A stretch of 24,466 nt of DNA. Origin: a virus. Positions 321 to 19,361 of the stretch are shown here, one piece after another. The position numbers and the translations under genes were made by a program. Numbering within the stretch: position 1 is the first letter of the stretch; each line of letters starts with the position of its first letter. The DNA lies in the IMG/VR virus record IMGVR_UViG_3300008217_000091, positions 1-24,466 of that record; one strand, given 5' to 3'. Below the pieces are notes generated by a model. That model saw only the letters and a program-made list of their open reading frames with translations, did no database searches and was not told the origin of the DNA.

Positions 321-340
321 CGGCTATATCCTCCTTATGG

Positions 341-1135: not shown

Positions 1136-1147
1136 CCTTATTCCCCC

Positions 1148-6475: not shown

Positions 6476-6487
6476 AGGTGTACACCT
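6476..6487. repeat. Palindrome AGGTGTACACCT at a gene junction
   Basis: A perfect 12-base palindrome fills the whole gap between the stop of the 104-aa gene (TAA, 6489-6487) and the ATG of the 1775-aa gene (6475). It contains the only Shine-Dalgarno-like sequence for that ATG (AAGGTG, minus strand). The same palindrome recurs at 18211-18222, 19364-19374 (11 of 12 bases) and 23702-23713. Confidence 0.7.
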
Positions 6488-6801
6488 TAGAAAACAAATC
6501 TAGTGGCTGGATTATATCTTCCTACCCTACCTCGTTCCTGTGGGGAAACATTCTGGTAATACATCTGGGTAAATGGCATGTTCTCAAGATAATCATCAAA
6601 GGTTCCAAACTGCTGTCCTGATCTGGTGGCACTACCCAGTTCTCCCATGTATCTATTCCATACATTTCCAAACTGCCCACGCCAGTAATTTTGTTGGGCA
6701 GGAGAGTATCCCTGTTGTTGTGATGTCGTAAATGGAGCAGAACTAAAGTAAGACCACTGTGGATTTTCAGCTAATAGAAAATCTTCCCATCCTGTAGGCA
6801 T
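6487..6801 (-). CDS. Small structural-module protein, 104 aa, Q/Y/F-rich
   Basis: The protein is rich in Gln, Tyr, Phe and Asn. It has a central segment resembling QNYWRGQFGNVWNRYMGEL and an aromatic, basic end (RYNPATRFVF). Its start overlaps the stop of the 558-aa gene by one base (TAATG), so translation is probably coupled. Parts resemble motifs in its two upstream neighbours (an aromatic YxxG/NRYM segment, and an FNP/YNP segment followed by an aromatic pair), so it may be the shortest member of a family of three. No signal peptide or membrane segment is visible. Position between portal and capsid genes suggests a virion or head-assembly component. I do not recognise a named family. Confidence 0.6.
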   Translation of the reverse strand: MPTGWEDFLLAENPQWSYFSSAPFTTSQQQGYSPAQQNYWRGQFGNVWNRYMGELGSATRSGQQFGTFDDYLENMPFTQMYYQNVSPQERGRVGRYNPATRFVF

Positions 6802-8477
6802 TATACAAAGGCTCCAAATCTACTTGGTGCTAGTTGTTCCAAATGTGATAAGTATCCAGCAGGAGATGTGTGTCCTTTCTGTATACCTGCTTGCATATAT
6901 CTGTCATATATATTACGCATTGTCTGCTCTACAGCCCTGCCAGCATATCCACCTACAGGCGCACCACCACCATAATATCTAGCCATTGCCATAGCCCTTA
7001 CTGCCTCTGGGTCTTGCATGGCATAAGCCATACCCGGTGATCTACTGGAAAGCCTATTCCATTCAGAACTTCCGGGCATTTCTTGAGAAAACTTTCTAGC
7101 CATATCCCATCCAGTACCTATATTACTTGAAGGTAGGGCTTCTCCTATTACAGCTGACATTCCTTGACCTACACCTGTAAACCAAGGTGCGAATGCCATG
7201 TTAGTTCCCAGACCCTGTGTATCATTACCATATCCACCAAGAAGAAATCTTCCGAATGTAGGATTAAACTGTCTCTGTGCCATAGTACTGTATCCGGGCA
7301 TATAGTACTGTGGAAGGGCAGTAGACATTATAGATGCGTACTGTTGTTGAGGAGTAAATTCTCCAAAAACAGGACTACCTTCCCAATTGGTTCCTACATT
7401 AGCCCATGGCGATTCACGCAGCGAAGCTGAACTTATGCCGGGAAATCCAAGATCAAACTCATCCGGGGTTAGTTGATAAGGTCTACCGTTAGCCATATTG
7501 CCTCCTGTTGGTTGGTATACATTACCACTTCCATTAGTAGATTGACCACCGCCAGTAAAAGTAGAATAAGGATTACGAATACTACTGCCACCACCATAGT
7601 TATCTTGATAATAGTTAGTCTCTATCGTAGGTTGTGTTCCAGTTACTGTTACTGGTTGTCCCTCAACTAGATTAGGCCCACCAGTTCCTACATAACCAGA
7701 TGGAATTATATTTCCCTCTTGATCAAGAACAAATTCTCCGTAAGTACCTTTACTCATATCTATTGATGGTACAAACGGTCTTCTATTGGATATCCATTCA
7801 GTAGTGTATGGATTATTTGGTGGAAGTCCTGCGGTATTCCAGTTACCAGCCTGTTCAAGATCAGTAGGGCTAAACTCAAATCCAAAGCCTCTGGCAATCC
7901 CCTGATAGTCAGCCTGACTGAGAGTAGCCCCAGTCTGTTGTGCTGACCTGATAGCACCAAGATAATCCCAGTACCTAGTCTCGATTGGCCCCTGTGATGA
8001 TCCGTATATCTGCTGTAATGATGGGTTGTACTGGTTCCACTGAGATGGATCAGATATCTGACCAGTGCCTAAAGCCCTATCCCTTTCTATCCTAGCTATC
8101 CTTCTTGCCTCTGCCAAGAATGGACTGACACTGGCCTGTGCATCAGTTATATCCGCATCTGACTCTATATCTACATATGTCTGATATTCCTGTTGCTCTC
8201 TTTCTTGTCTTCTCTGTCGTGCTTGTATAGATGCATTGATGATAGATTGTTGGTCAGGGCTGTAATTTTCTTGAATAAGAGCCCTTCTCTCTACTTCATT
8301 TATTTTACCTTTTGACTCTAGTTCACCAATAGCCTTATCAAGTACAGCAGGATTAATGGACTCACCGCTTTCAAGGCCAAGTTCTTCTCTTAACTTGTCC
8401 TGCAAGTCACTTAGATCACCTTGACCGATCTGAGTAGGTTCTCTATATTCTCCTGCCCTATCATCTATAACAGCCAT
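6801..8477 (-). CDS. P/G/Q-rich structural-module protein, 558 aa (paralogue of the 601-aa neighbour)
   Basis: The N-terminal third is charged and helical, with a coiled-coil-like QARQRRQEREQQEYQ near residues 85-100. The middle (about 260-340) is low complexity, rich in Gly, Ser, Asn, Thr and Tyr. The last about 70 residues contain AMARYYGGGAPVGGYAG, then NIYDRYM, and end in PSRFGAFV. The same layout (AVARYYKGQPVQAGYAD, NIYDDLQ, PDRFGR) ends the 601-aa neighbour, and both share an earlier GE(F/Y)...QYAS.M block. The two genes are therefore probably ancient paralogues. The stop of the preceding gene lies two bases away and the next gene starts inside the TAA. A virion-associated role is inferred from context only. 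Confidence 0.6.
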   Translation of the reverse strand: MAVIDDRAGEYREPTQIGQGDLSDLQDKLREELGLESGESINPAVLDKAIGELESKGKINEVERRALIQENYSPDQQSIINASIQARQRRQEREQQEYQTYVDIESDADITDAQASVSPFLAEARRIARIERDRALGTGQISDPSQWNQYNPSLQQIYGSSQGPIETRYWDYLGAIRSAQQTGATLSQADYQGIARGFGFEFSPTDLEQAGNWNTAGLPPNNPYTTEWISNRRPFVPSIDMSKGTYGEFVLDQEGNIIPSGYVGTGGPNLVEGQPVTVTGTQPTIETNYYQDNYGGGSSIRNPYSTFTGGGQSTNGSGNVYQPTGGNMANGRPYQLTPDEFDLGFPGISSASLRESPWANVGTNWEGSPVFGEFTPQQQYASIMSTALPQYYMPGYSTMAQRQFNPTFGRFLLGGYGNDTQGLGTNMAFAPWFTGVGQGMSAVIGEALPSSNIGTGWDMARKFSQEMPGSSEWNRLSSRSPGMAYAMQDPEAVRAMAMARYYGGGAPVGGYAGRAVEQTMRNIYDRYMQAGIQKGHTSPAGYLSHLEQLAPSRFGAFV

Positions 8478-8479
8478 AT

Positions 8480-10285
8480 CTATCTTCCAAAGCGATCAGG
8501 ATTATTTTTTGATATAAAGTTTAAGAAATGAGCAGGTACATTTCCTGTAGTACCTTCTTCTCTCATTGCCTTTAACTGAAGGTCATCATAAATATTACTA
8601 AGGCTTGACCATAAAGCTGAGTCAGCATATCCAGCCTGTACAGGTTGTCCTTTATAGTACCTAGCAACAGCAAGAGACAATAAGTCTTTCTTTTGATTCT
8701 TGTTTATATGACCCGATAATATAGGATTATTTGCCGTCCATTCTCCTAATTTGTCAACATCATTAGACTGTTTCAAATCAGAATAGTCTAATAGGCTATC
8801 CCACTGGGAATCAAATTGTTCCCAGTTAAGGACTGGTAACTTTTCAGCTTCTATGTTGGATAGAAATTTACCCCATTGTTGATCCGTTGCACCCAGAGAT
8901 GTTGGTGTCTGTGGATAAGTTTCTGAACTTCTTGGTTGTAACCAGTAATATCCCTGCAATGCTCTAAGCTGTCGATTATAGAATGACTCTATATTTGGAC
9001 TTCCCCAATTACTAACGAGAGGTTGCATATAGGATGCATACTGGTCTGGAAGTGAATATTCTCCAAAACCCGGTGGGAATTCTCTATCCCCAACTCCTAT
9101 GGTTAATTCAGTACCAAGTCCAGTACTTGGTAGAGGGGGTGTAACTCCACGCATACTCTGGAACCCCGGCTCACCTACTGGAACGTAGAACCCCGGATCA
9201 CCTACTGGAACGAATCCTGTATCCCTTGATACATCACTCACTATATTTGGGTTACCCAGTATGCCCAGTTCAAATTGGCTATCATCCTCTTTTGCTTCTA
9301 CGGCTTCGTAGGATGTCGATGGGACTTTGAGTGGTTCCCGGAAAGCCTTAGCAGTAATTATCGGGTCAAAAGATTTTATTGGAGGTTCAGGTGGGACTGT
9401 TGGGATACCAAGTTCTATCCTTCTCTCATTTAGTATTTTACTTTGGTATCCCGGATTCTTAGGTGGAAGTTTATCTCCTATTGGGCCTTTGTACCAAGGG
9501 CGAATGTCTTCAAGTAATCTATCCAAGTAACTTGTAGGGTCTTCACCTCCAGCAATATAGTAGTCAAGCCACGCATTGTCCCATTCTTCCTCTGTCATAT
9601 CGTAGGGCTTATTATTCCAAGTAGGTGGCATATTTGGTACATCATCTGGAGTATCAGTAAATACAGGTTCCTTAAAAGGATCAGACATATCAAGTCTTGG
9701 AGATGTTGATGGGGCAAACATTCCTTCTGTACCTGTTAACTCTCCACCAAATCCAAATGGAAACGCACCACCTTTAGTTTGTGGAGAAGGTGGCAATGGA
9801 TTGAAGAGGGCTTCCCCTTCTATACCAGTGGAAGTAATTCTATTTAATACTTCTTCCGCAGATATATCGTTGTACGCATTTACCATTGCATCTGAAGAAA
9901 CATCCATTTCTTTAGAAACATCATTAACCAGAGAACGTGCAATAGTGCCGGGATATCTTCCATAAAGTTGTTGTGCAGCTGTGTCAACCTTGGCTTGTTC
10001 TAATCGTGCATCTATATCTACACCACGTGATGACACATCATCTATTACCATGCTTGTGGCAAGATTTGGATCACCACCAGATACCTGTAAATACTGATCT
10101 ATCAATGGCCCATCCATGGGCATAGGAGCACCCATTCCCATGGAAATCTCATCTCTTAAAGCCATCTCCCGATCAGGATCACGACCTTCAAGCATATCAA
10201 CTAGATACTGAGGATCACCACCAGACTTCAGCACAGACTGTGGTAAGCCACTAAATATACTTGGTATGTTGTCTCCTATTGCCAT
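8480..10285 (-). CDS. Proline-rich structural-module protein, 601 aa
   Basis: The first about 150 residues are acidic and helical. Residues about 150-400 are proline-rich and probably disordered, and include a short in-frame tandem repeat of nine residues (VPVGDPGFY / VPVGEPGFQ). The C-terminal about 190 residues are more ordered and carry a GEYSLPDQYASYM block and the ARYY...GYA...NIYD block shared with the 558-aa neighbour. It lies three bases after the portal stop. No catalytic motif was seen. The long Pro-rich linker and paralogous C-terminal domain suggest a structural or assembly protein that binds the same partner as the neighbour, but this is inference. Confidence 0.58.
   Translation of the reverse strand: MAIGDNIPSIFSGLPQSVLKSGGDPQYLVDMLEGRDPDREMALRDEISMGMGAPMPMDGPLIDQYLQVSGGDPNLATSMVIDDVSSRGVDIDARLEQAKVDTAAQQLYGRYPGTIARSLVNDVSKEMDVSSDAMVNAYNDISAEEVLNRITSTGIEGEALFNPLPPSPQTKGGAFPFGFGGELTGTEGMFAPSTSPRLDMSDPFKEPVFTDTPDDVPNMPPTWNNKPYDMTEEEWDNAWLDYYIAGGEDPTSYLDRLLEDIRPWYKGPIGDKLPPKNPGYQSKILNERRIELGIPTVPPEPPIKSFDPIITAKAFREPLKVPSTSYEAVEAKEDDSQFELGILGNPNIVSDVSRDTGFVPVGDPGFYVPVGEPGFQSMRGVTPPLPSTGLGTELTIGVGDREFPPGFGEYSLPDQYASYMQPLVSNWGSPNIESFYNRQLRALQGYYWLQPRSSETYPQTPTSLGATDQQWGKFLSNIEAEKLPVLNWEQFDSQWDSLLDYSDLKQSNDVDKLGEWTANNPILSGHINKNQKKDLLSLAVARYYKGQPVQAGYADSALWSSLSNIYDDLQLKAMREEGTTGNVPAHFLNFISKNNPDRFGR
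9161..9214. repeat. 27-base in-frame tandem duplication
   Basis: Two near-identical copies begin GAACCCCGG at 9161 and 9188 and continue TCACCTACTGGAACG, with one visible substitution inside that stretch. They give two copies of a nine-residue VPVGDPGF-type unit in the disordered region of the 601-aa protein. Confidence 0.7.
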
Positions 10286-10288
10286 ATG

Positions 10289-12133
10289 TTATCCCCTTGG
10301 GCCTACAAGACCCATCTGTCTAAGTCTTGCATCTTCACCCATAGCACCGGGTCTTGGTGATCCGGGTGGAACATTTGGCCCTGCCTGTGGTGTAGGTGTA
10401 GGTGGTGGCATACCGCTCATCATAGCTGGTGGAGCAACACCGGGTGGAACACCGGGTGGCCCTACTGGTGGTGGAGCACCCATAGGCACAGGGGAAGGTG
10501 CACCAGCGGATTGGGCTGGCGGTACCCCACCACCTAGATTATCCGATATCATCTTAGCTTTACTCAACATAACAACCATGAGTTCACCAAGATAGAACTG
10601 TGCAAGATCATCTCTTCCCTGTTTAAGTGCTGCCTGATACAGACTCCACAACCCTGCTTCTGGAAGAGTCCTTTCCGCTATTTGCTCCTTGATAGCATCG
10701 TCTGTCTGGTCTGCGTCCTGAATGCCAAGTATATTGTCCCTGATCCATAGGTCTGGCATGAGTGGGGTTGGCCCTTCTCTTGCGATCTGAGCCATGGAGT
10801 ACTTGGACATATCGTCCTGTGGCAGTCTCGCTACCACGGAAACCTCAATCATTCCACCGTCTTTTACTCTCTCAGGTGTTATAGTCTCAGAAAAATACAT
10901 CCTGTTATTGTCACGACCTGAAAGCTCAACAGCAGAGAATGATCCACTAGCGTACTGGTCTGACAATAGATTACATATCTGCATATAGGCATGTTCAAGT
11001 GCCGTGATCCTAGGTGAAAGAACAGACTCAACACCCTGTCTCAGGGTATTGATAGCAAATCCTGATAGCTGAAACTGTAGTTCGCCGTATACCGAATGAG
11101 GAATAGAACCTCTTTGCATCTCACCAGATACCATTCCCATGTATGCACCAGTCTCTCTGGCAATCTCCATGAGTCCCAACGGTTGGACATCCTCACCCTG
11201 TGCTAGGGATATTTCAGTTCCTTCCTTGTATGGGTCTTCTTCCAGTGTTTTCTGACCATCTCTGGAAGTTATCTTTATTCCCTGTCTTCTGGAACGTGCA
11301 GTCATCTCAAGCATTACACTCATCATAAAGTTATGCTTTTCATAAAGTTCTCTTGTGGACTTGAAGATCGACTCCCCATAATCTTCAACGGTATCTTCTA
11401 TAGATGACCATTCCAGTGACTGGACAAGTGGGTTTGAACCTACAGGGCCAAGGAATACAGGAACACCTGTTCCACCGTGTGCAGTTCTTTTCTTTATAAA
11501 CCTGTGTGGTATAGCTACAAAGTTATCCTCACGATCATAAAAGTCGTAGACATCTATCCCATCTTCATCTATACGCTCTGTGCCAAGCCTGACATTATAC
11601 TGGGACTCTATCTCTCCTCTGGTCTTCTTCATCTTGTAGCAAGCCCAAGCAAGACCCTCTGAATCCGTACCCCAGTAGGTGTGCATCGCATCCCATGGTG
11701 TGATATCTATGTGAGTCTCATCATTATCATTCTTAACAAGAAGTGCTCTTCCTGCATACCATCCACGTAAGGTGATATACCATGCCAGCTGGTCTTGAAG
11801 TCTGGGAAGAAGTCTTCTTACAAGTCTTTCATCGGCAGCCTTGAGAGCACCGATGATAAATCGTTCCTTATCATTATTGACTTCTCTTGTGTTTCTTGGA
11901 TTACCAGCAGGTGGAATACGTATAACCCTGTCAGCAGACGACAGCCAAGAGATTATCTTATCCGCATATGTCTGCGGTTCATTGGATGTGTATGACTGGT
12001 ATCCATCTCCTGCGTCATATGGTGCCAATCTATACAGATCATGGTCAGCATCCATTCTGGATCGGAGTGGTTCAGTGGAATCGTAGTGCGAATCTACCAG
12101 ACTTATAATATCTTCTACTTTTCTTCGGGCCAT
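10289..12133 (-). CDS. Portal protein
   Basis: 614 aa. The N-terminal half has the typical features of phage portals: an early helical stretch with SYTSNEPQTYADKIISWLSSADRVIRIP, then RRLLPRLQDQLAWYITLRGWYAGRALLVKND, an ITPWDAMHTYWGTDSEGLAWACYK strand pair, and a long helical stem/crown region around residues 230-360. The C-terminal about 90 residues are an unusual Pro/Gly/Ala tail with repeated PPxG and GAPxP units, probably disordered. The ATG follows the terminase large-subunit TAG without a gap, and GAGGTGG lies just upstream. In the virion, portals form the dodecameric ring through which the terminase pumps DNA. The assignment rests on family resemblance and the TerS-TerL-portal gene order. 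Confidence 0.82.
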   Translation of the reverse strand: MARRKVEDIISLVDSHYDSTEPLRSRMDADHDLYRLAPYDAGDGYQSYTSNEPQTYADKIISWLSSADRVIRIPPAGNPRNTREVNNDKERFIIGALKAADERLVRRLLPRLQDQLAWYITLRGWYAGRALLVKNDNDETHIDITPWDAMHTYWGTDSEGLAWACYKMKKTRGEIESQYNVRLGTERIDEDGIDVYDFYDREDNFVAIPHRFIKKRTAHGGTGVPVFLGPVGSNPLVQSLEWSSIEDTVEDYGESIFKSTRELYEKHNFMMSVMLEMTARSRRQGIKITSRDGQKTLEEDPYKEGTEISLAQGEDVQPLGLMEIARETGAYMGMVSGEMQRGSIPHSVYGELQFQLSGFAINTLRQGVESVLSPRITALEHAYMQICNLLSDQYASGSFSAVELSGRDNNRMYFSETITPERVKDGGMIEVSVVARLPQDDMSKYSMAQIAREGPTPLMPDLWIRDNILGIQDADQTDDAIKEQIAERTLPEAGLWSLYQAALKQGRDDLAQFYLGELMVVMLSKAKMISDNLGGGVPPAQSAGAPSPVPMGAPPPVGPPGVPPGVAPPAMMSGMPPPTPTPQAGPNVPPGSPRPGAMGEDARLRQMGLVGPRG

Positions 12134-13477
12134 CTACCACCTCTTGACCCTGATGAGGCTGTTATTCCTCAGATGTCCGTATCCGAACCTGTCCACAAGC
12201 CCATAAATAACAGCTTTAACACCGTGGTTGTTTTTATCTTCAGGAGATTCACCCACTATATTACCATCTCGATCAGTTCTCCAGCGATATGCTTTCGTTT
12301 GTCCATCAAAAGGATTAGGTTCTGATCCAAATTCAGATAAAATTCCACGACAATTAGGATTAAAAATGATTTTTGGAGTATTAGAAATCGGATCGGGCTT
12401 CAAAAATGACTTTAACCTTTCAGTTCCCTCGTTGATACGAACTTTCTGAGCAGCAAGGTATATCCCTGTTTGCTCCAGCCATATCTCTGCCGGGGCAGAC
12501 ATAGCCTGATGCTGGTATCCAGCTATGTCTATTACCCCACCTTGGACATCTTTCCACCATGGTCGTGCCTTGGCTATATCGATCATCTCTGTTGTGATCA
12601 AACCCTGTTCGTATATCTCGTCTATTACACATATCTGACCATTTATATCCTGAACTACTTCTACGGCATAGCCACCTGAATAACCGGGGTCTATCCACAG
12701 GTATACAGGCTCACCTATCAACCACTTGGCCTCATCACTTATATGTATGTCAGGACGGAACTCACCAAACACCAGACCCTGTGGCGGTGTTGGTATACCT
12801 TCAATCCTCTCCATGAAGAACTCGTCAGATGCAACAGCCTTAAGTCTTAATATCTCAGGATCAGACTTACCGCCGGGATAGAGATACTCGTTTGAGTAGC
12901 TGGGAAGGGAGAAGGACTGCTCCTCATCACCACCATGTTGCCATTGCTGGAATAACTGGGGATACCATCCAAGTGATCCTTCAAAAGTACCACCAAGAAA
13001 CATCCACCCCCTCTTAGGTGCACACCTACTTCTCATCCTGTGGAAAGTTTCAAGGTCTAACTGGCTTGCCTCACACCCTATAATTCCATCTGGTGCTCTC
13101 ATAGCCAGTGTCCTTGGGTCTTTTGCAGACTTTGTTTCTATCCTAGTGCCGTCAGCAAGGACAATTCTTCCCGGATCAACACGCTTGGTAACCTCAGATA
13201 GGATACCAAGTGTGGCAAAGTCCTGTGTCAGGTACTCAAACTCCGCTCTTGTCCTCTCATAGTCAGCAGCAACCAGCCAGTAAAGACCTGCATCGTCTGT
13301 TTCCAGAAAGCGTGATAGGAGATACTTGCTAGCTACCATGGACTTACCAGCCTGTTCACCACCAGCTACAAGTATGAACCGTTTTCTGGAGTCAAGTATG
13401 GGTGCCTGTTTAGGTGTAGGCTCAAAGTCCAGCTTTGAGAACAGGTAATCCGTTATATCAGGACTAGCTGTTGTCAT
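12134..13477 (-). CDS. terL: Terminase large subunit (ATPase and nuclease)
   Basis: 447 aa. Walker A is GGEQAGKS at residues 39-46. A Walker B-like strand GIIGCEAS lies near 131-138, with the acidic residue E136. The coupling motif region is GWMFLGGTFEGSLGW near 157-171. The RNase H-like nuclease follows, with D263 (LWIDPGYSGGYAVEV), an acidic residue near 287 (VIDEIYE), D317 (GVIDIAG) and a final acidic cluster in SPEDKNNHGVKAVIYGL. The length is normal for TerL. The enzyme couples ATP hydrolysis to DNA translocation into the prohead and cuts the concatemer. Its start overlaps the upstream gene by 14 bases and has no strong ribosome-binding site, so translational coupling is likely. All key motifs appear intact. 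Confidence 0.93.
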   Translation of the reverse strand: MTTASPDITDYLFSKLDFEPTPKQAPILDSRKRFILVAGGEQAGKSMVASKYLLSRFLETDDAGLYWLVAADYERTRAEFEYLTQDFATLGILSEVTKRVDPGRIVLADGTRIETKSAKDPRTLAMRAPDGIIGCEASQLDLETFHRMRSRCAPKRGWMFLGGTFEGSLGWYPQLFQQWQHGGDEEQSFSLPSYSNEYLYPGGKSDPEILRLKAVASDEFFMERIEGIPTPPQGLVFGEFRPDIHISDEAKWLIGEPVYLWIDPGYSGGYAVEVVQDINGQICVIDEIYEQGLITTEMIDIAKARPWWKDVQGGVIDIAGYQHQAMSAPAEIWLEQTGIYLAAQKVRINEGTERLKSFLKPDPISNTPKIIFNPNCRGILSEFGSEPNPFDGQTKAYRWRTDRDGNIVGESPEDKNNHGVKAVIYGLVDRFGYGHLRNNSLIRVKRW

Positions 13478-13760
13478 AGGACATACTGTAATAGGGATTC
13501 ATGTATACCCATATGGGAGTCTTTTCCCCAACCCACGAACCCTTTACGTTGTAATCGAAAAACTCCAATGCCTCTGTACGGTTCATACCGTCACGGCTCA
13601 TAAGAATATCGATACATTTATCTACATCATATACAGCAACAGAGCCAAGGTTAATCCGCTCACCTATTCCGATGAGAGCATCTTCAAAACCATCTGCCGT
13701 CACCAACTTCCCTAATTCCTCTTCCCCAATCAGAGTTTCAAAGTATTTACCTATCATCAT
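13464..13760 (-). CDS. Conserved phage protein, 98 aa, between terminase genes
   Basis: I place the start at ATG 13760, behind GGAAGAGGG with six bases of spacing, rather than at the further upstream start at 13799, which would lie deeper in the small terminase gene. The protein reads MMIGKYFETLIGEEELGKL and then GFEDALIGIGERINLGSVAVYDVDKCIDIL, MNRTEALEFFDYNVKGSWVGEKTPIWV. The pattern F-x-x-A/V-I/L-x-G-x-G-E-R-x-N, V-Y-D, E-A-x-E-F/Y-F-x-x-N-V-x-G and V-G-E-x-T-P is one I have seen in small conserved phage proteins of unknown function. It overlaps TerS at its start and TerL at its end (14 bases each), so all three are probably made together and it may act in packaging or assembly. Confidence 0.72.
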   Translation of the reverse strand: MMIGKYFETLIGEEELGKLVTADGFEDALIGIGERINLGSVAVYDVDKCIDILMSRDGMNRTEALEFFDYNVKGSWVGEKTPIWVYMNPYYSMSYDNS

Positions 13761-14232
13761 CAGATTCCCTCTTCCTTGAGAGTATCTTTTCAACCTCATC
13801 TATGGCATTTTTTCTTGCGTCTACTTCTTCAGCACTGACAGAAACACTCTGTTTCTGATCTTTCCGCAACTGTTTTAGTTCGGCAAGTATCATCTTGGCC
13901 TCAGATGTGTCAGATTGGCTAGTCCTCTTGAACTCAGGTACGAAAGCATTCAGGTATGAGAGTAACAACACAGGATTGTCAGTAGGTTTCTGTGCCTTTA
14001 TACGCTCCCATCCAATATCCTGAAGGGATTCTCGCCATACCTGAAGGGCTTCCAGCTTCTTATCCCTGAAATTGTAGGTGTTTTCACCTTCCCACTGGTA
14101 TATGGTAGCCCTAGAAACAGATGCCTTGGTTCCCTTTAAGGCTTTCACTGCTGAAACAACGGTACCACACTGACTGTACGCTACAAGAAAAGCATCCTGT
14201 ATAGCCTTTGTCTGGTCTTTTCCTCTTGCCAT
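13747..14232 (-). CDS. terS: Probable terminase small subunit (DNA recognition)
   Basis: 161 aa. The N-terminus holds a helix-turn-helix-like unit near residues 9-50 (AIQDAFLVAYSQCGTVVSAVKAL, then ASVSRATIYQWEG). The middle is helical (EALQVWRESLQDIGWERIKAQK, then NPVLLLSYLNAFVPEF), and the tail from about 105 is a charged coiled coil (EAKMILAELKQLRKDQKQ ... EVEKILSRKRESDDDR). HTH, oligomerisation helix and charged tail are the usual TerS order, and the gene lies upstream of TerL. TerS rings bind the packaging site and regulate TerL. A transcription regulator with an HTH is the alternative, made less likely by gene order. Confidence 0.75.
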   Translation of the reverse strand: MARGKDQTKAIQDAFLVAYSQCGTVVSAVKALKGTKASVSRATIYQWEGENTYNFRDKKLEALQVWRESLQDIGWERIKAQKPTDNPVLLLSYLNAFVPEFKRTSQSDTSEAKMILAELKQLRKDQKQSVSVSAEEVDARKNAIDEVEKILSRKRESDDDR

Positions 14233-14237
14233 ATTAT

Positions 14238-15047
14238 CTACCTACTGAAGGGATTGATATGTGTAAAAGAGCGTGTTGGTAAAAGTTGGCTAGCTAGATA
14301 CGATGACCATGGATATTTTTCTATATATGGGTCTAGAGCATTCTCTATTCCCCTTCTCATGCGAGTAGTTGGTGGTGTCCAGTTAGTAAAATCTGAATAT
14401 AATTGTCGATAATCTTCGACTTCATTTCGTACACCCGGAAAGAATCGTGAATACGGATCTCTGTCCCATATATTCTGCCACATAGATTGAGGATTAAACA
14501 ATCCTCTATCGGTAGTATCTGAAAGTCCAAGTCCTTCAAAACCTGCATGAGGATAGGGATCACTTATACCCTGTGGTATCCCCATTGGTGGAGTTGCATC
14601 GTAAGTAATTGAAGGGGGCAATATACCAGTTTGAGGTATCTGTCCTCGTGTATCCATATTAGGTGGCATTGTAGGAAGTGGTTGTGGATTATATGACCAT
14701 GGATTTATTAATCCTTCAAGATGTGGTTCATCCCTAACGGCTGAAGGAAGCCAAGCAGGAGCATCTACGTTAAAAATTTGATGAGCAGGTGTAGATGATA
14801 ACGGACTTGGTCGTGCTCGAATATTAGGAAATACAGTAGGGGCAAAGTTCTCAGGAGGAATACCTCTTCTAAGAACATCACCGGGACTCACAGAAGGTTC
14901 AACATAGGGTTGCCTGTTCCACGGATAGGAAGGCTGATCAATGCCCACCCTGCGTTGTACTAGGTTAGATATATCTTCTGTAGCCGATCCTCTATCCACA
15001 TCTCTTTCGTGGCCCAGTAAAGGATTTAATGGTGTTATATGTGGCAT
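14238..15047 (-). CDS. Proline-rich protein, 269 aa, late operon
   Basis: Most of the protein (residues 1-200) is low-complexity sequence rich in Pro, Asn, Gly and Arg with many P-x-x-P and NPW/NPQ units, probably disordered. The last about 60 residues look folded, with an aromatic and basic helix (WTPPTTRMRRGIENAL, then YPWSSYLASQLLPTR) ending in FTHINPFSR. There is no signal peptide or membrane segment. It starts 13 bases after the small membrane-protein gene and stops five bases before TerS. The composition resembles the 601-aa and 558-aa proteins, so a minor virion or assembly function is plausible. I recognise no family. Confidence 0.6.
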   Translation of the reverse strand: MPHITPLNPLLGHERDVDRGSATEDISNLVQRRVGIDQPSYPWNRQPYVEPSVSPGDVLRRGIPPENFAPTVFPNIRARPSPLSSTPAHQIFNVDAPAWLPSAVRDEPHLEGLINPWSYNPQPLPTMPPNMDTRGQIPQTGILPPSITYDATPPMGIPQGISDPYPHAGFEGLGLSDTTDRGLFNPQSMWQNIWDRDPYSRFFPGVRNEVEDYRQLYSDFTNWTPPTTRMRRGIENALDPYIEKYPWSSYLASQLLPTRSFTHINPFSR

Positions 15048-15059
15048 ACCGATTTTCCT

Positions 15060-15254
15060 TTAACTATCTGATTGAAGTACATCCTTTGCAAGGGCAATAA
15101 TACCTGCAACACAACCAACTGTCACCTCAACCATACCGTTAAACATACCAACAATAGCAATACCGCCAAGAAGCAAGATAGATAGAAATATCTGTGGACG
15201 CACCTTGCCAATAAAATCTTTTAACGATGCCCTGCCTTGATATCCACTAGTCAT
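15060..15254 (-). CDS. Small membrane protein, 64 aa (holin candidate)
   Basis: A basic N-terminus (about 20 residues, SGYQGRASLKDFIGKVRP) is followed by two hydrophobic stretches, about 21-38 (QIFLSILLLGGIAIVGMF) and about 42-57 (VEVTVGCVAGIIALA). They are joined by a short NGM turn, and the C-terminus is short and acidic. Two short transmembrane helices and the size fit a class II-type holin or another small phage membrane protein. No endolysin is visible in this window, so the lysis role is only a guess. It is the first gene of the minus-strand late block; the ATG has TGGAG about nine bases upstream. A TATACT/TATGAT-rich stretch precedes it but no convincing -35 was seen. Confidence 0.55.
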   Translation of the reverse strand: MTSGYQGRASLKDFIGKVRPQIFLSILLLGGIAIVGMFNGMVEVTVGCVAGIIALAKDVLQSDS

Positions 15255-15294
15255 AACGTAACTCCATTTCCTATGAACAGTATCATATAGTATA

Positions 15295-15348
15295 AGAGTG
15301 TTTCACCCTATATAACCCCCTTAAGGGGGTATAGGTGAAACACACTCT
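15295..15348. repeat. Large imperfect hairpin, left flank of the hairpin field
   Basis: The outer arms are AGAGTG..TTTCACC and GGTGAAACACACTCT, and the core is the perfect ACCCCCTTAAGGGGGT (15315-15330). Small bulges break the middle. It lies between the small zinc-protein gene and the membrane-protein gene, both on the minus strand, so it could act as a terminator or attenuator, but no T-run follows on either strand. It shares its outer and core motifs with the hairpin at 18261-18308. Confidence 0.7.
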
Positions 15349-15359
15349 ATTATTACTAA

Positions 15360-15605
15360 TTAACTTAACCTGTTGTTTCGCCTGAAACAAGGCGAAATTT
15401 CTTTGAAACATACATCGTGTTTCGTTGAAATTTCAGCATGTTTCACTGAAACATCGTCTGGTTGATTGGCCCAGTTTGTTTCTGGGTCACATTCAGGATG
15501 CCAACTCATTCGGAATCCTTCATGATGAATCTCATCTCCTTCCTTGATGTCGTTACATCCAGATAGATAAGCGAAGTAACAAGGACTGTCAAAGGTAGCT
15601 TTCAT
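15360..15605 (-). CDS. Small putative zinc-binding protein, 81 aa
   Basis: Starting at ATG 15605, the protein begins MKATFDSPCYFAYLSGC and continues IKEGDEIHHE, then MSWHPEC. The arrangement C9, C17 ... 'I-K-x-G-D-E-I' ... W-H36-x-x-C39 matches small treble-clef or zinc-ribbon domains in which C-x(n)-C, a 'KGDEI' hairpin and W-x-H-x-x-C hold one zinc. C9 to C17 is longer than the usual CxxC, so C9 may not be the ligand. The last 30 residues are encoded by an array of TGTTTC/GAAACA half-sites and may be less constrained. No Shine-Dalgarno stands at a proper distance; a promoter-like sequence places the transcript start next to the ATG, suggesting leaderless translation. A TTG at 15641 is a weaker alternative start. 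Confidence 0.6.
   Translation of the reverse strand: MKATFDSPCYFAYLSGCNDIKEGDEIHHEGFRMSWHPECDPETNWANQPDDVSVKHAEISTKHDVCFKEISPCFRRNNRLS
15369..15484. promoter_or_regulatory. Cluster of TGTTTC/GAAACA half-sites (operator-like)
   Basis: Half-sites occur at about 15374, 15384, 15405, 15418, 15439, 15448 and 15478. The best pair is the 17-base ATGTTTCACTGAAACAT at 15438-15454, with arms of eight around a central C. Neighbouring structures are a 7-bp stem at 15376-15397 (TTTCGCC/GGCGAAA) and TGAAATTTCA at 15426-15435. Further copies form the arms of the two large hairpins. Spacing and symmetry suggest binding of a dimeric repressor, but part of the array also encodes the C-terminus of the small zinc protein. 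Function is inferred. Confidence 0.45.
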
Positions 15606-15612
15606 ATCTGAT

Positions 15613-15641
15613 ATTGTATGTAGGTAGACCCCCTTTAGCAA
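15613..15641 (-). promoter_or_regulatory. Candidate sigma70-like promoter for the small zinc-protein gene
   Basis: On the minus strand TTGCTA (15641-15636), a 17-base spacer and TACAAT (15618-15613) match 4/6 and 5/6 of the bacterial consensus. The -10 ends seven bases before ATG 15605, so the transcript would begin at or almost at the start codon. Confidence 0.45.
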
Positions 15642-15857
15642 AAAAATTCTGTCAGGGGTAGAAGCTCTTTTTATTAGAGAGACTCAAGCCATGCCCCCTA
15701 CTTTGTCCGAAGCCAGCCGACCTCCAGCCCAGACCCCCAGAAGCGTAGCTTCTGACTGACGGACGTCTTCAGCTGCCCTCAGAAGTCGAAGACTTCTGCC
15801 CTGATTCCTTTTTACCATGTCTGGCACGTAACAATTTGTTCCTATCGTGCCTAGGGT

Positions 15858-15886
15858 TTGACATCCTTCCCCTTACTACGTAAGAT
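15858..15886 (+). promoter_or_regulatory. Candidate early promoter P1 (TTGACA-17-TAAGAT)
   Basis: The -35 TTGACA (15858-15863) is perfect. The spacer is 17 bases and the -10 is TAAGAT (15881-15886, 4/6). The hairpin CTTAC-TAC-GTAAG (15872-15884) spans the spacer and the -10. Transcription would start near 15893 and read into the early genes from 16022. The sequence GTTTGACATCC is shared with the promoter at 18343. Confidence 0.6.
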
Positions 15887-16021
15887 AGGCACCGGAGTCC
15901 ACCCCAGACCGAAGGTCGAAGCCGAAGTCAAATCCAAAGGGTGAAGTGGAACTACGTTCCAACTAAGCGGCGAGTTAATCGCTGGAAACACAAGCTGCCC
16001 CGAAGGGGCAAGGAGAACAGA

Positions 16022-16582
16022 ATGACGACGAAAACAACAGAGAAAGTTACACACCAGTCAACCCCGAAGGGGTTGAAGAAACTGCTCCATGTCAAGTGGA
16101 CTGAGGGCAGGGAGTTACTACGTAACTCAAGACGCTTCGATGGCAAGGAAGGCTGGGAGCCAGTTAGTACCGTAGGTACTAGGGTGGTGTTTGACACTGA
16201 GTGGAAAGAGTACGGCGTTTATGTATACATAAACGAAAAACGCTACTACCCTGCCGATGCCTATCGGCAGGACAAGAGCGAAGCTCTTGAACTGGCTAAG
16301 AGCCTACGGCTCTGCTCCGACTTCACCGTCAGGGCAGCACCTTCGAAGAAGGTGACCAAGAAGGCAAAGCCTTCTTCGAAGAAGAAGCCAGTAGCCAAGA
16401 AGGCAACGTCACCGAAGGTGACGAAGAAGACAGCTACCAAGGCAAAGGCTTCACCGAAGGTGAAACCAGAAGCCAAGAAGGCTGTAGCCCGAAGGGCTAG
16501 GCATCAAAGGGGTCGAACTCCAACCCTTACAGGGTTGAGATTTGAGATCACAGCTAACAATCAAGTGAAATTTATCAGCTAG
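16022..16582 (+). CDS. Lysine-rich, histone-tail-like DNA-binding protein candidate, 186 aa
   Basis: The start ATG 16022 is chosen because AAGGAG lies seven bases upstream; an upstream in-frame ATG at 15941 has no ribosome-binding site. Residues about 1-100 look folded, with WTEGRELLRNSRRFDGKEGWEPVSTVGTRVVFDT, EYGVYVYINEKRYYPAD and an acidic helix. Residues about 105-160 are an Ala/Lys/Pro tail of the histone H1/HU type, with repeated KKxxKK, SPKV and TKKA units (about one third lysine). The final about 25 residues are again ordered (LTGLRFEITANNQVKF). Many tail units, such as the SPKV segments, are encoded by GAA-loop hairpins. A role in binding nucleic acid is inferred from charge. It is the first gene of the plus-strand block and is followed by a 29-base gap with a hairpin and a ribosome-binding site. 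Confidence 0.65.
   Translation: MTTKTTEKVTHQSTPKGLKKLLHVKWTEGRELLRNSRRFDGKEGWEPVSTVGTRVVFDTEWKEYGVYVYINEKRYYPADAYRQDKSEALELAKSLRLCSDFTVRAAPSKKVTKKAKPSSKKKPVAKKATSPKVTKKTATKAKASPKVKPEAKKAVARRARHQRGRTPTLTGLRFEITANNQVKFIS
16216..16235. repeat. 20-base perfect palindrome CGTTTATGTATACATAAACG
   Basis: This is the longest perfect even palindrome seen inside the field and is read through as coding sequence of the lysine-rich protein. Unlike its neighbours it is AT-rich and has no odd triloop. Confidence 0.8.
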
Positions 16583-16611
16583 TCACCCCGAAGGGGTGAA
16601 GGAGAGAAACC

Positions 16612-17565
16612 ATGAAAGCGAATCCGTTTAGTGCACCAAAGGTGCAGTACGACAACACGACCCAGACTTGGACATCGGACATTCCCACCGAAGGTGGGAT
16701 TGATCCGAAGAAGGGTGAATTGCTCAGCTTCGGTAATGGCAATGCAAAGCTGAAAGCTTTGAGGAAAGCAGCTTCAGCGAAGCTGAACGTGCCGATAGCT
16801 AGGGTAAGAATACTTACCCTCACCTTGCCAGCTGGTTGGAGTTGTCCCGGTGCCAACGAATGCTTAGCATTCGCCGACCCTGTGACTGGCAAGGTCTGGG
16901 ACAGTCCTGAACTAAAGTTCAGATGCTTCGAGGCCAGTGCTGAGAGATACGAGAACGTCAGGCAACAGAATTGGCACAACTTTAACCTACTCCGTAGGTT
17001 AACTGGGTCAAGTGCAATCTCAATCTCTATCCTTATCAGCGATAGCCTCATAGAGGCTACGAAGAAGTTCAAGTCCGATGACGTAGTCATCGTGAGAATC
17101 CATGTCGGTGGAGACTTCTACAGTACGAAGTACTTAGAAGGCTGGGCAATAGCCCTTCGGGCTACTCAGCTACCACAAAACGAATCGATGCCTAGGATTA
17201 TAGGCTATGCCTATACCAAATCACTGCACCATGTAGCGAAGCTACTGCGCGTACTCACCCTGCCTGAGAACTTCGTTCTCACAGCCAGTGAGGGTGGAAA
17301 ACACGACCACCTGATCCAGTCCCTAGAGGGACTGAAGTCAGTCAAGGTGGTCTTCAGCCCAGAGCAAGCCCAGTCCGAAGGACTGGAGATTGACCATGAC
17401 GATAGTCATGCAGTGTTCGGCAAAGAGTCCTTCGGACTCTTGATACATGGGACACAACCGAAGGGCAGTGAATCAGGTAAGGCCTTGTCTAGCCTAAAGG
17501 CTAGGGGTATCCAGTCTGGATACTCCGAAGCTGTACTCAAAGAGTACAGGGAAACTATCAACTAA
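16612..17565 (+). CDS. Phage Gp88-family protein, 317 aa
   Basis: The core resembles the phage 'gene product 88' family as I know it: RVRILTLTLPAGWSCPGANE, CLAFADPVTGKVWD, then FRCFEASAERYENVRQQNW, with C78, C84 and C105. A later part contains VVIVRIHVGGDFYSTKYLEGW and IIGYAYTKSLHHVAKLL, then FVLTASEGGKHD. Mycobacteriophage and other phage members share the 'G-x-x-C-P-x-A-x-x-C' and 'F-R-C-x-A-x-S' blocks; their function is unknown. The cysteine spacing suggests metal or cluster binding. The start has AAGGAGAG directly after a GAA-loop hairpin (16583-16599). Nearly every 40 bases of this gene hold a hairpin, more than 20 in total, yet the reading frame is intact and the family motifs are preserved. 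Confidence 0.75.
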   Translation: MKANPFSAPKVQYDNTTQTWTSDIPTEGGIDPKKGELLSFGNGNAKLKALRKAASAKLNVPIARVRILTLTLPAGWSCPGANECLAFADPVTGKVWDSPELKFRCFEASAERYENVRQQNWHNFNLLRRLTGSSAISISILISDSLIEATKKFKSDDVVIVRIHVGGDFYSTKYLEGWAIALRATQLPQNESMPRIIGYAYTKSLHHVAKLLRVLTLPENFVLTASEGGKHDHLIQSLEGLKSVKVVFSPEQAQSEGLEIDHDDSHAVFGKESFGLLIHGTQPKGSESGKALSSLKARGIQSGYSEAVLKEYRETIN

Positions 17566-17597
17566 GTGCACCACGTAGTGGTGAAGGAGAAAAGAAC

Positions 17598-17840
17598 ATG
17601 AGTACGAAGTACTTCAAAAGTTTGGACGAGTCAGTTCCCGAAGGGAAACTGGTTCGACTGAAGGACGTTAAGAAGGGTGACTGGCTCAAGCGTAGCTTGA
17701 ATACTGGAAAGGTCTACCGACGATCTCACTACGTGAGAGATGGGGGATTCAAGCGGTACTCTTGCGATGATGTCGAAGACATCAGCCGTGAGATATTCCT
17801 GAAAGGTAGCACGATTGTGTGGGTCGGGTTTACATACTAG
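17598..17840 (+). CDS. Small conserved phage protein, 80 aa
   Basis: A Shine-Dalgarno AAGGAG lies ten bases before the ATG, right after the hairpin CACCAC-GTA-GTGGTG. The sequence is KGDWLKRSLNTGKVYRRSHYVRDGGFKRYSC, then DVEDISREIFLKGSTIVWVGFTY. The layout 'K-x-G-D-x-x-K-R ... V-Y-x-R-x-H-Y-x-R ... K-R-Y-x-C-x-D-x-x-D-I ... L-K-G-S-T-x-V-x-V-G-F' is one I know from small phage proteins of unknown function. It is basic in the middle and probably all-beta, and could bind RNA or DNA. There is no membrane segment. Confidence 0.7.
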   Translation: MSTKYFKSLDESVPEGKLVRLKDVKKGDWLKRSLNTGKVYRRSHYVRDGGFKRYSCDDVEDISREIFLKGSTIVWVGFTY

Positions 17841-17858
17841 CCTACGGCTAGGAAGGAG

Positions 17859-17879
17859 ATGCCTATGGTGACTAACTGA
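17859..17879 (+). other. Possible six-codon leader ORF (MPMVTN)
   Basis: The sequence GGAAGGAGATGCCTATGG sits just after hairpin CTAGCC-TAC-GGCTAG, in the same arrangement as the genes around it. ATG at 17859 or 17865 opens only four to six codons before TGA at 17877. It may be a leader peptide, or the remains of a gene lost downstream. An excellent ribosome-binding site with almost no frame is unusual. Confidence 0.35.
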
Positions 17880-17930
17880 TGACTGGCTAGGTACAAACAA
17901 GTGTGTCCCTTTGGGACAGGAGAATAAAAC

Positions 17931-18032
17931 ATGAACGAACTGATCAGTGAATTACTTGACAACGCCTACGGCGAAGTGAACATCAACGAAGTTGAGGTGG
18001 AGATAATTGCAGAATTTGAGACAGCTAAATAA
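17931..18032 (+). CDS. Very small acidic protein, 33 aa
   Basis: ATG 17931 is preceded by ACAGGAG with eight bases of spacing, directly after hairpin TGTCCC-TTT-GGGACA. The product is acidic and helical, beginning MNELISELLDNAYGEVNINE and ending EIIAEFETAK. Two short hairpins (17963-17973 and 17983-17995) lie inside it. It is too short to assign. Its start context and position in line with the other early genes make translation likely. Confidence 0.6.
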   Translation: MNELISELLDNAYGEVNINEVEVEIIAEFETAK

Positions 18033-18070
18033 CTAACGTCCCGAAGGGACAAACAACTGGAGTGTAAATC

Positions 18071-18260: not shown

Positions 18261-18308
18261 AGTGTGTTTCAGATGTACTCCCCTTAAGGGGGGTACATCA
18301 GAAACACT
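18261..18308. repeat. Large imperfect hairpin, right flank of the hairpin field
   Basis: Arms AGTGTGTTTC and GAAACACT, inner stem GATGTAC/GTACATC and core CCCCTTAAGGGG (18280-18291) pair over nearly the whole length with one mismatch and small bulges. It resembles the element at 15295-15348 in outer arms and core. No T-run follows. It lies upstream of promoter P2, so it might end the first early transcript or act as an operator. Confidence 0.7.
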
Positions 18309-18342: not shown

Positions 18343-18371
18343 TTGACATCCCCTTTAGGGGAGTGTATGCT
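18343..18371 (+). promoter_or_regulatory. Candidate early promoter P2 (TTGACA-17-TATGCT)
   Basis: TTGACA (18343-18348), 17 bases and TATGCT (18366-18371, 4/6) lie 55 bases before the proposed start of the metallopeptidase gene. The spacer contains the inverted repeat TCCCC-TTTA-GGGGA (18349-18362). The predicted transcript begins with another hairpin (TGTGC-ATTT-GCACA, 18382-18395). It shares TTTGACATCC with P1. Confidence 0.6.
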
Positions 18372-18425
18372 AAGTATCCGTTGTGCATTTGCACAGCCTC
18401 AACAAGTACAGGAGAACGTGGAGAA

Positions 18426-19361
18426 TTGGTTAAGAAAGCAGAGGTACTAGACGTAGAGAAAGTAGAGTTCACAGAAATCACACTGCCAAAGGAGCAGACT
18501 ATAAATATGTTGAAAGAAATTACAGCACCACCGACACCTAAGAAACCTCGCAAGGCCAACAAGAATGGCAAGCCCAAGACGGTCAAGAAAGGTAAGGTAA
18601 ATCCTATTCTTGATAAGGCCTCATTTAACGGTAAGTTAGAGGCCACCCTTACCAATCAAAAGATTGCACTTGAGACTGAGATTATGAGGATTGGTATCGC
18701 CACTATCAAACAACTCTGTAAAGAAGGGGGAGATGATGAGGGGATGGACATGATCAACATGGGCAAGTGGCACATCGTCCCTAACCTATCCACCACTGGG
18801 TCTAGAAAAGGCAACACTGATGCGGATAGTACAACCAAGGGTTACTACTGCCCTTCCACATCCACAGGACAATGGGTTGTTGATGGCATGGTTGGCAAGG
18901 AACTGACTATCAACTACTGGAACCTGCACAAGATGGGTGCTGAAGAATTTTTTAACTTTGTAGTCCATGAGTTTGTCCATGCCTACTCTGATCTCAGTGC
19001 CAAGACTGATAAGGATCGGGACTGTGCCAAAAACGGAGCACACAAGAAAAGGTTTGCTGATCTGTGTGCACAGGTAGATTGGATCGAGGCTATCCCAGCC
19101 AGTGGGTACGTCAAGATGACATCCCAAATCACTGACGAGGGTCGAAAGATGGTTAAGAAACTCAAGGTCAAGGCTCCCTCGATTGGTAAGACCCCGGCTC
19201 CTAAGAAACCCAAGGCCAAGAGGGTAAGTCTTGAGTGCAAGAACTGTGACCTCAAGGTCATGGTTCCCTTTGGTAAATGGGAGAAAGGTAAGGTAACTCT
19301 TAACTGCCTATGCCTTGGAAAGGAGAATGGGGTAGAGATGAAAGCCAACGTGATTGGCTAG
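18426..19361 (+). CDS. SprT-like zinc metallopeptidase, 311 aa
   Basis: TTG 18426 is the best start: it stands five bases after GGAGAACGTG, exactly where ATG stands in three later genes. A GTG at 18363 in the same frame lies inside the promoter. The first about 70 residues are basic and disordered (KKPRKANKNGKPKTVKKGK). The domain then carries the zinc motif HEFVH at residues 181-185 (FVVHEFVHAYSDL), with a likely third ligand H206 in GAHKKRFADLCAQ, as in phage SprT-like proteins where 'H-N/K-K-x-F' follows. The tail has a zinc ribbon, C271-x2-C274 and C294-x-C296. Human and phage SprT-type proteases act on DNA-bound proteins; the substrate here is unknown. Unlike the genes before it, this gene has no hairpin field. 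Confidence 0.75.
   Translation: MVKKAEVLDVEKVEFTEITLPKEQTINMLKEITAPPTPKKPRKANKNGKPKTVKKGKVNPILDKASFNGKLEATLTNQKIALETEIMRIGIATIKQLCKEGGDDEGMDMINMGKWHIVPNLSTTGSRKGNTDADSTTKGYYCPSTSTGQWVVDGMVGKELTINYWNLHKMGAEEFFNFVVHEFVHAYSDLSAKTDKDRDCAKNGAHKKRFADLCAQVDWIEAIPASGYVKMTSQITDEGRKMVKKLKVKAPSIGKTPAPKKPKAKRVSLECKNCDLKVMVPFGKWEKGKVTLNCLCLGKENGVEMKANVIG

Follow-up and report, generated by a model that had tools for sequence, protein, structure and literature searches.

REP sequences are many short palindromes, all copies of one sequence. The palindromic elements of Rickettsia are likewise numerous, short copies of one sequence, and some lie inside genes (as described in PMC6649704). Mitochondrial genes of Nematomorpha carry perfect coding inverted repeats with arms of up to 142 bp, scattered over the genes and with no constant loop reported (PMC6649704). 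The early promoters of phage N4 are DNA hairpins with a 5-7 bp stem, a three-base loop, a C-G closing pair and a purine turn, and C-GNA-G loops extrude in N4 at physiological supercoiling (PMC4496689). Hairpins can arise and persist through template switching (PMC8794818), and such switching, or quasipalindrome conversion, is a mutational process rather than an element that gives perfect arms, matched multi-base changes and hairpins made from local sequence (PMC8794818, PMC7202029). The locus described here lies in a stretch of ocean-virus DNA of 24,466 nucleotides, analysed whole (the window), and we found no described system of its design among the open-access papers that we searched, in keeping with the original prediction. 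As in Nematomorpha, its repeats are perfect, lie in conserved coding genes with no excess of imperfect ones, and are gained and lost between species with both arms coding (PMC6649704). In contrast to the nematomorph repeats, the arms are 6-9 bp, the turn is a constant C-(G/A)(A/T)A-G (C-RWA-G), dozens stand in one block and pairing is conserved in place by compensatory change. Unlike the Rickettsia elements, the stems all differ and are replaced without insertions, and the shared stem sequence of a REP-like dispersed repeat family is absent.

Between positions 15738 and 18050 of the window there are 39 perfect hairpins with a stem of at least 6 bp and a three-base loop, whereas 100 dinucleotide shuffles gave a mean of 0.66 and a maximum of 3; for stems of at least 7 bp the figures are 26 and 0.21. 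Positions 1-15737 hold 1.2 of the former hairpins per length equal to the field, and the density profile along the window has a single peak, at 15.5-18.0 kb. The first hairpin (15738-15754) and the last (18038-18050) fall on the edges originally predicted, and the contrast then drawn between more than 30 observed and fewer than one by chance is confirmed; no shuffled sequence reached a comparable density. Stems of at least 5 bp number 46 with a three-base and 10 with a four-base loop. At this looser threshold 52 non-overlapping hairpins lie between 15700 and 18080, spaced 45 +/- 17 bases apart, compared with an earlier estimate of at least 53 inverted repeats, one every 40-45 bases. Helical phasing of the spacing gave no clear signal, and GC skew flips sign at the left edge of the field, at about 15.7 kb. 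The features are as follows.

15738-18050, no strand: field of 45 perfect mini-hairpins that do not overlap (stem of at least 6 bp, loop of 3-4 bases)
15738-16010: non-coding left part of the field, with hairpins at 15738-15754, 15780-15798, 15947-15961 and 15996-16010
16022-16582, + strand: gene for a Lys-rich protein of 186 aa with a basic Ala/Lys/Pro/Ser tail, 14 hairpins inside
16583-16599: hairpin TCACCCC-GAA-GGGGTGA, immediately 5' of the ribosome-binding site for gp88
16612-17565, + strand: gp88 gene, 317 aa, 20 hairpins inside (stem of at least 6 bp, loop of 3-4 bases)
16982-17002: example of compensatory change, TTAACCTAC-TCC-GTAGGTTAA here and TTAACTTAC-TAC-GTAAGTTAA in the relative L003
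17043-17059: example of two amino acids changing together, with CTC..GAG (Leu/Glu) in the window, ATC..GAT (Ile/Asp) in L003 and ATT..AAT (Ile/Asn) in L096
17598-17840, + strand: ORF of 80 aa, 3 hairpins inside, with a homologue in L023, which has no field
17931-18032, + strand: ORF of 33 aa at the field's right end, with hairpin 18038-18050 after its stop

Open reading frames contain 37 of the 45 hairpins. The gp88 gene of the window has 16 with a three-base loop and a stem of at least 6 bp, against 0.41 in synonymous-codon shuffles, and six gp88 genes have 13-17 each against 0.3-0.6. The two kinds of shuffle together rule out chance or base composition as the source of the field. The virus is a dsDNA phage with a terminase. 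The Gp88 assignment, anticipated by the original prediction, is confirmed by a profile match to PF17338 (E 2.6e-32), and the search of solved structures returned no confident match for Gp88. Only gp88 among the field genes is common to all clade genomes that span the field; the Lys-rich protein is absent from L006 and L096, which removes it as a common cause within the window's clade.

The hairpins share a core and little else. Those of the field with stems of at least 5 bp have the loops C(GAA)G (20), C(TAC)G (6), C(GTA)G (5), C(AAA)G (3), C(TTC)G (3) and C(TCC)G (1), overwhelmingly C-RWA-G or its complement. Among 144 unique hairpins from six genomes, 125 have a C-G closing pair and 120 an RWA loop or its complement; A or T almost always occupies the middle position (GGA 4, GCA 0), and AAA loops (15) are as frequent as GTA loops (15). 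The strong loop bias noted earlier thus persists on a full count, while the class then proposed, GNA, proves too broad, given the rarity of GGA and GCA and the commonness of AAA. Stems range from 5 to 10 bp and are mostly of 6-8 bp; lengths of 6, 7, 8, 9 and 10 bp occur in 59, 47, 22, 11 and 5 hairpins, roughly halving with each base pair. As had been claimed, stems differ in sequence: 183 distinct hairpins have no stem sequence in common. This, together with hairpin turnover without insertions, rules out the insertion of repeat copies. Within the window's clade information is confined to the 5-mer core, with flanks at background out to 30 bases on either side.

This last result bears on whether a virion RNA polymerase could initiate at each hairpin, as in N4. 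Stem length, three-base loop and C-G closing pair agree with the N4 promoters, as does the sheared purine turn (the sheared pair by analogy), and the loop class is, as originally noted, one of high stability in DNA that N4 employs (PMC4496689); the field also lies in the early region. However, N4 promoters conserve positions -17 to +1, whereas here no base is conserved outside the core within 30 bases, and N4 has three promoters and a dedicated giant polymerase, in contrast to about 45 hairpins here, lying inside genes and in both orientations. The window's largest ORF matches no solved polymerase, and an ORF of the size of such an enzyme (~3500 aa) was seen neither in the window, as already reported, nor in the examined parts of the longest relatives (38-40 kb), all of these records being fragments. 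We therefore regard it as highly improbable that an N4-like polymerase lands on the field, as once suggested.

The field is present in eight related contigs, and these relatives retain proteins as well as hairpins, with compensatory changes in the stems. With the shuffles and the full loop count, this was the third check by which the original prediction could have failed, and none of them refuted it. In the gp88 alignment 22 pairs (37 cells) have changed in both arms, against 10 pairs (13 cells) after shuffling and at most 7 pairs (11 cells) when positions are slid; a second phage group, described below, gives 52 pairs (97 cells) against 24 (33) in the control. Double changes show almost no G-U intermediates in either group. 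The hairpins overlie conserved Gp88 residues, matched two-arm changes sometimes alter two amino acids at once, and the frames are open in all genomes; because the field is conserved in separate metagenomes, where its changes are matched and the frames intact, an assembly artefact is ruled out. Before the gp88 ribosome-binding site, wholly different stems occupy the same place, CACCAC-TAC-GTGGTG in L003 and CAGCCC-GTA-GGGCTG in L006. Stems diverge about half as fast as the remaining field (0.11-0.13 against 0.21-0.22; 0.016 against 0.059 elsewhere in the field for the pair L003-L005). A doubled protein constraint could also slow stem divergence. As read from these alignments, the relatives conserve the hairpins and not the stem sequences. 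Relatives with the same backbone and no gp88 have no field, and in L022 and L023 a DUF7227-like protein stands at the place of gp88, its gene free of hairpins. Gp88 families with no more than 49% identity, that of Synechococcus phage S-EIVl among them, also have no field. Since these distant homologues lack hairpins, Gp88 itself does not require them, and a role for it as a general hairpin reader is not supported.

Core-pattern scans of viral contigs revealed similar fields in unrelated contigs with no homologue of any window protein, each confined to one neighbourhood of its genome; a third scan added only weak or short candidates. Of the 27 loci of the second phage group, 20 reach a density of 16-28 hairpins per kb within a single Lys-rich gene, compared with 1-3 outside. 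There the field tracks this one gene and its 5' leader and ends within 100 bp of the stop codon, a pattern that counts against a DNA-level explanation and is expected of an RNA-level or transcription-coupled feature. Isolated phages with a field were sought through the Lys-rich field proteins, the field protein of L232 and two further field contigs, and none was found.

The original prediction had also proposed that RNA hairpins protect the early mRNA, and one can envision mini-hairpins packed into that mRNA against nucleases, guide-RNA attack or Rho termination, or for an RNA-binding protein. Besides the extent of the second-group field, such a role accords with the start of the window's field at the beginning of a rightward unit, with non-coding hairpins that sit just upstream of ribosome-binding sites (15996-16010 ends just before that of the Lys-rich gene) and with predicted RNA folding that beats shuffles, albeit on both strands. 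Compensatory changes are present too, although paired DNA and paired RNA alike would show them. In several fields the loops favor the coding strand (20:10 in the window, 18:4 in L204), and in L239 they favor the opposite one. Coding bias can itself produce such a lean in Lys/Glu-rich genes. Loops in non-coding DNA point both ways, with 31 sense and 16 antisense in the window's clade, 30 sense and 44 antisense around the Lys-rich gene of the second group. Fifteen fields pooled contain 501 perfect stems against 17.6 expected, while stems with a single internal mismatch are at background: 37 G-U against 29, 34 A-C against 34, and 144 others against 130. In the second group, too, G-U pairs are neither enriched over shuffles nor more numerous than A-C mismatches, in coding and non-coding DNA alike. 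Because G-U is no commoner than A-C, which is G-U on the other strand, an RNA-level reading is disfavored; the scarcity of G-U intermediates, a favored loop that is a special DNA turn, and an Rfam search of the region that returned nothing convincing point the same way. We consider protection or packing of the mRNA quite unlikely. On the mismatch counts, what is maintained is the complementarity of the DNA, and neither strand tolerates wobble pairs.

The main rival to a DNA structure under selection is template-switch copying without function. A nascent strand would fold back at a C-GNA-G turn, copy 5-9 bases of its own arm and return to the template, leaving perfect hairpins whose loop is constant and whose stems are arbitrary, and in which later mutations are repaired or spread; confinement would mark a region with much exposed single-stranded DNA. 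This accounts together for the different stems, constant core, perfection, double changes and missing imperfect intermediates. Functionless copying would likewise leave almost no imperfect stems, a point against the structure under selection. Switching is known to make and keep hairpins (PMC8794818), the same idea has been proposed for the perfect coding palindromes of nematomorph mitochondria (PMC6649704), and the halving of stem numbers per base pair is what copying might give. Matched two-arm changes are common. Yet loop inversion, a mark of hairpin inversion by switching, accounts for at most 3 of 99 loop differences (the reverse complements), a rarity that speaks against hairpin inversion as the main process, and loops change mostly through single substitutions. 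Unbiased conversion alone should not slow divergence, whereas stems diverge half as fast; GCA and GGA turns, although just as stable, hardly occur in the window's clade; and in some fields, though not all, the hairpins are spaced more evenly than at random. The fields also stay in the same genes, with none in the remaining genome. Switching alone leaves unexplained why the hairpins keep to certain genes, use so few loops and are evenly spaced, and we judge a functionless by-product to be somewhat unlikely.

We tentatively favor, at a little under an even chance, a model in which the region is a structural DNA field over the first rightward (early) genes, kept perfect by strict selection and possibly by self-templated copying. 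Supporting this model are the hairpin density and codon shuffles, the covariation and lack of wobble tolerance, the slower stem divergence, the information confined to the core, the different stems at the same place, the recurrence in unrelated contigs, the GC-skew switch at the left edge and the extrusion of such loops in N4 (PMC4496689). Some 45 different Watson-Crick mini-hairpins, mostly with 6-8 bp stems and C-RWA-G loops, run across coding and non-coding DNA alike. They would form in DNA when the region is negatively supercoiled or single-stranded, perhaps at the start of early transcription or during replication near the skew switch, helped by the very stable turn. Selection against unpaired arms would keep both arms perfect, and self-templated copying may assist by rewriting an arm from its partner in one step. 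If so, whole genes would evolve under a second, DNA-structural code, strong enough that amino-acid pairs change together, a constraint not described for phages. A functional field would imply an unknown early step common to unrelated phages, such as supercoil sensing, replication start or nucleoid assembly; a functionless one would be among the clearest cases of hairpins made and kept perfect by self-templated copying, testable in phage. Either way, fields can be searched for computationally in any genome.

These findings raise the possibility, which we regard as somewhat doubtful, of a new class of structural DNA element in several unrelated groups of environmental phages: gene-length fields of perfect C-RWA-G mini-hairpins over early genes that are extruded during infection and read by a dedicated structure-specific protein, perhaps Lys-rich and self-encoded. 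A single stretch of DNA would then specify both a conserved protein and a structure repeated along the DNA. More speculatively, and with rather low likelihood, a DNA-binding protein that recognises structure could use the extruded array, where the early region starts, as its platform or as a supercoil sink. First candidates for such a protein would be the Lys-rich, linker-histone-like proteins that are encoded inside many fields; the one of the window has homologues in L001, L003, L004 and L005.

The window is a virus record of 24,466 bases, in which structural genes run leftward and early genes run rightward from about 16.0 kb, with the sign of the GC skew flipping near 15.7 kb. The original prediction placed a field of mini-hairpins at 15738-18050, and these coordinates are exact since the final hairpin ends at 18050. 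Within them lie 39 perfect hairpins (stem at least 6, loop 3) versus a mean of 0.66 in 100 dinucleotide shuffles, none of which held more than 3; positions 1-15737 contain 1.2 per length equal to the field. Against synonymous-codon shuffles, gp88 has 16 hairpins (0.41 expected), the Lys-rich gene 12 (0.33) and the terminase gene 0 (0.4).

Features of the window around the hairpin field
10289-12133, leftward: portal-like gene
12134-13477, leftward: terminase gene
15303-15348: terminator-like long hairpin, left of the field
16022-16582, rightward: Lys-rich gene
16612-17565, rightward: gp88
18264-18307: terminator-like long hairpin, right of the field

The two long flanking hairpins have arm ends GTGTTTC..GAAACAC and centre CCCCTTAAGGGG, and may mark where transcription units end or where modules meet; comparable ones occur in the field-less relatives L022 (5432-5477, 7048-7093) and L023 (5815-5860). 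Just right of the field, an ORF (18363-19361) that matches PHROG 6361 and has no Pfam match carries the motif HEFVHAYSD, of a type typical of SprT-like zinc proteases. A leftward ORF of 1775 aa (1148-6475) has counterparts of 1781-1822 aa in G002, G003 and G004 and no match in Pfam, PHROG or PDB.

The field follows close relatives of gp88. Viral contigs encoding Gp88 homologues of 61-84% identity (L001-L006, L096 and L013, the last stopping within the field) all carry it, peaking at 14-22 hairpins per kb; none of the remaining fetched loci (Gp88 of at most 49% identity, or terminase only) exceeds 6. L022 and L023, records of 38-40 kb with a terminase 89% identical, lack both gp88 and the field, and L008, whose Gp88 (39% identity) is encoded at the same position beside the terminase, is free of hairpins. 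In L096 the field spans gp88 plus about 100 bases past it, and in L003 it thins rightward into a CobS-like gene. Among these relatives, all of them metagenomic fragments, the field is therefore a derived trait, specific to the clade and with gp88 at its centre.

Six genomes of this clade contain 183 distinct hairpins, with stem lengths peaking at 6-8 bp, a C-G closing pair in 125/144 and the loop RWA or its complement in 120/144. When hairpins are aligned on their loops, information is confined to the 5-mer C-R-W-A-G, with only background levels in the outer stem and in the flanks up to 30 bases away. Successive hairpins in the window lie 45 +/- 17 bases apart. Spacing is more regular than expected for random positions in L003, L006, L205 and L232, and at looser settings in most of the clade, but not in every field. 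In gaps between genes a hairpin often lies directly 5' of the ribosome-binding site, with a different stem there in relatives.

Stems co-vary. With the window hairpins as structure, the gp88 alignment has two-sided changes in 22 pairs and 37 cells, versus 10.2 and 12.8 for shuffled and at most 7 and 11 for slid controls, and 89.7% of cells are paired. One hairpin runs through GTAAG..CTTAC, GTCAG..CTGAC and GTTAG..CTAAC, and the paired arms CTC..GAG, ATC..GAT and ATT..AAT produce joint two-residue swaps (Leu/Glu, Ile/Asp, Ile/Asn). Covariation is again clear in a second, unrelated group of phages whose field sits over one Lys-rich gene (52 pairs and 97 cells versus 24 and 33). Several hairpins are absent from another lineage, which has an unlike hairpin 6-14 bases from that site instead, and divergence in stems is about half that in the remaining field sequence.

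Selection on mRNA structure is expected to tolerate G-U pairs on the coding strand. Pairwise comparison gave 14 G-T and 15 A-C internal single changes. Pooling 15 fields, perfect stems number 501 versus 17.6 in shuffles, and stems with one internal mismatch 37 versus 29 (G-U), 34 versus 34 (A-C) and 144 versus 130 (other). In the second group, coding DNA has 262 perfect stems versus 23 and 15 G-U stems versus 19.5; non-coding DNA has 145 versus 8 and 14 versus 13. Because G-U pairs are not tolerated on the coding strand, pairing is maintained at the DNA, not the RNA, level. Loops occur in both orientations, intergenic hairpins included.

The sequences show perfect hairpins that are maintained at the DNA level, are clade- and gene-specific in location and recur in other phages. 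Nematomorph mitochondrial palindromes likewise have perfect arms, which were interpreted in that case as evidence of active conversion (PMC6649704). The phage hairpins could be a functionless by-product of template switching, a process described in PMC8794818, and the lack of imperfect intermediates fits that origin; the slower divergence of stems, narrow choice of loops, replacement in place and even spacing instead favour function. Both may act jointly. In phage N4, loops of this kind are extruded at physiological supercoiling (PMC4496689), and by analogy the hairpins would form in DNA when the region is supercoiled or single-stranded. The open-access papers searched yielded no description of such fields.

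Mini-hairpin fields recur among phages. Viral contigs were scanned three times for pairs of hairpin cores separated by 16-48 bases, and the contigs retrieved hold far more hairpins than the two cores that led to them; their number is uninformative on prevalence, since the cores retrieved them.

Field contigs from the core scans
L204/L255: GC 0.59; Terminase_3 family, Lys-rich 238-aa gene, GP88 gene nearby
L205/L257: GC 0.58
L239: GC 0.62; 83 mini-hairpins; ORF matching CobS-like phage ATPases
L214: GC 0.66
L232
L240/L244
L220, L237, L243, L249, L253, L224: high-GC loci, gene content unclear

The main contigs tested had no match to window proteins, and searches from field proteins and field contigs found no isolated phage with a field. 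The scans also gave a Lys-rich protein family, whose search returned 27 loci, 20 of them with 16-28 hairpins per kb in the gene versus 1-3 outside; the field in this second group extends from about 500 bases 5' of the start codon to about 100 past the stop. The longest field found (L239 1240-7421, in a locus of 8.3 kb) carries most of its GNA loops on the strand that does not encode the long ORFs.

Gp88 was modelled with a mean pLDDT of 86 as a predicted alpha/beta fold, barrel-like by our reading, and has three invariant cysteines (C78, C84, C105). It has no confident match in the PDB (best E 0.1); viral models matched are other Gp88, one Gp37/Gp68-like and one DUF7227 protein. A 245-264-aa protein (L186 3526-4320, L189 11664-12401) occupies the gp88 place in L022 and L023 and is perhaps a functional replacement; the L022 copy matches DUF7227 weakly. 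Several fields (window 16022-16582, L204, L205, L240 and the Lys-rich family) encode Lys/Ala/Pro/Ser-rich tails. Since linker histones prefer cruciform DNA, these proteins are by analogy candidate hairpin partners; the tails may also be merely what hairpin-rich coding sequence can encode.

L276 and its relatives have a long inverted repeat, AGATATAGATTA..GAATTC..GAATTC..TAATCTTAATATCT, directly 5' of the Lys-rich gene's start codon (L276 positions 4935-4995; columns 530-595 of alignment A5), near-invariant in nine genomes. L192, a contig of 63.7 kb, has in positions 1-8301 many hairpins, whose loops take every size from 2 to 8, and an intergenic GTTTGGATACAATCCAAAC that recurs, alongside genes for a MoxR-like ATPase and a DUF2201 metallopeptidase/VWA protein; this palindrome enrichment is of a different kind from the mini-hairpin fields.
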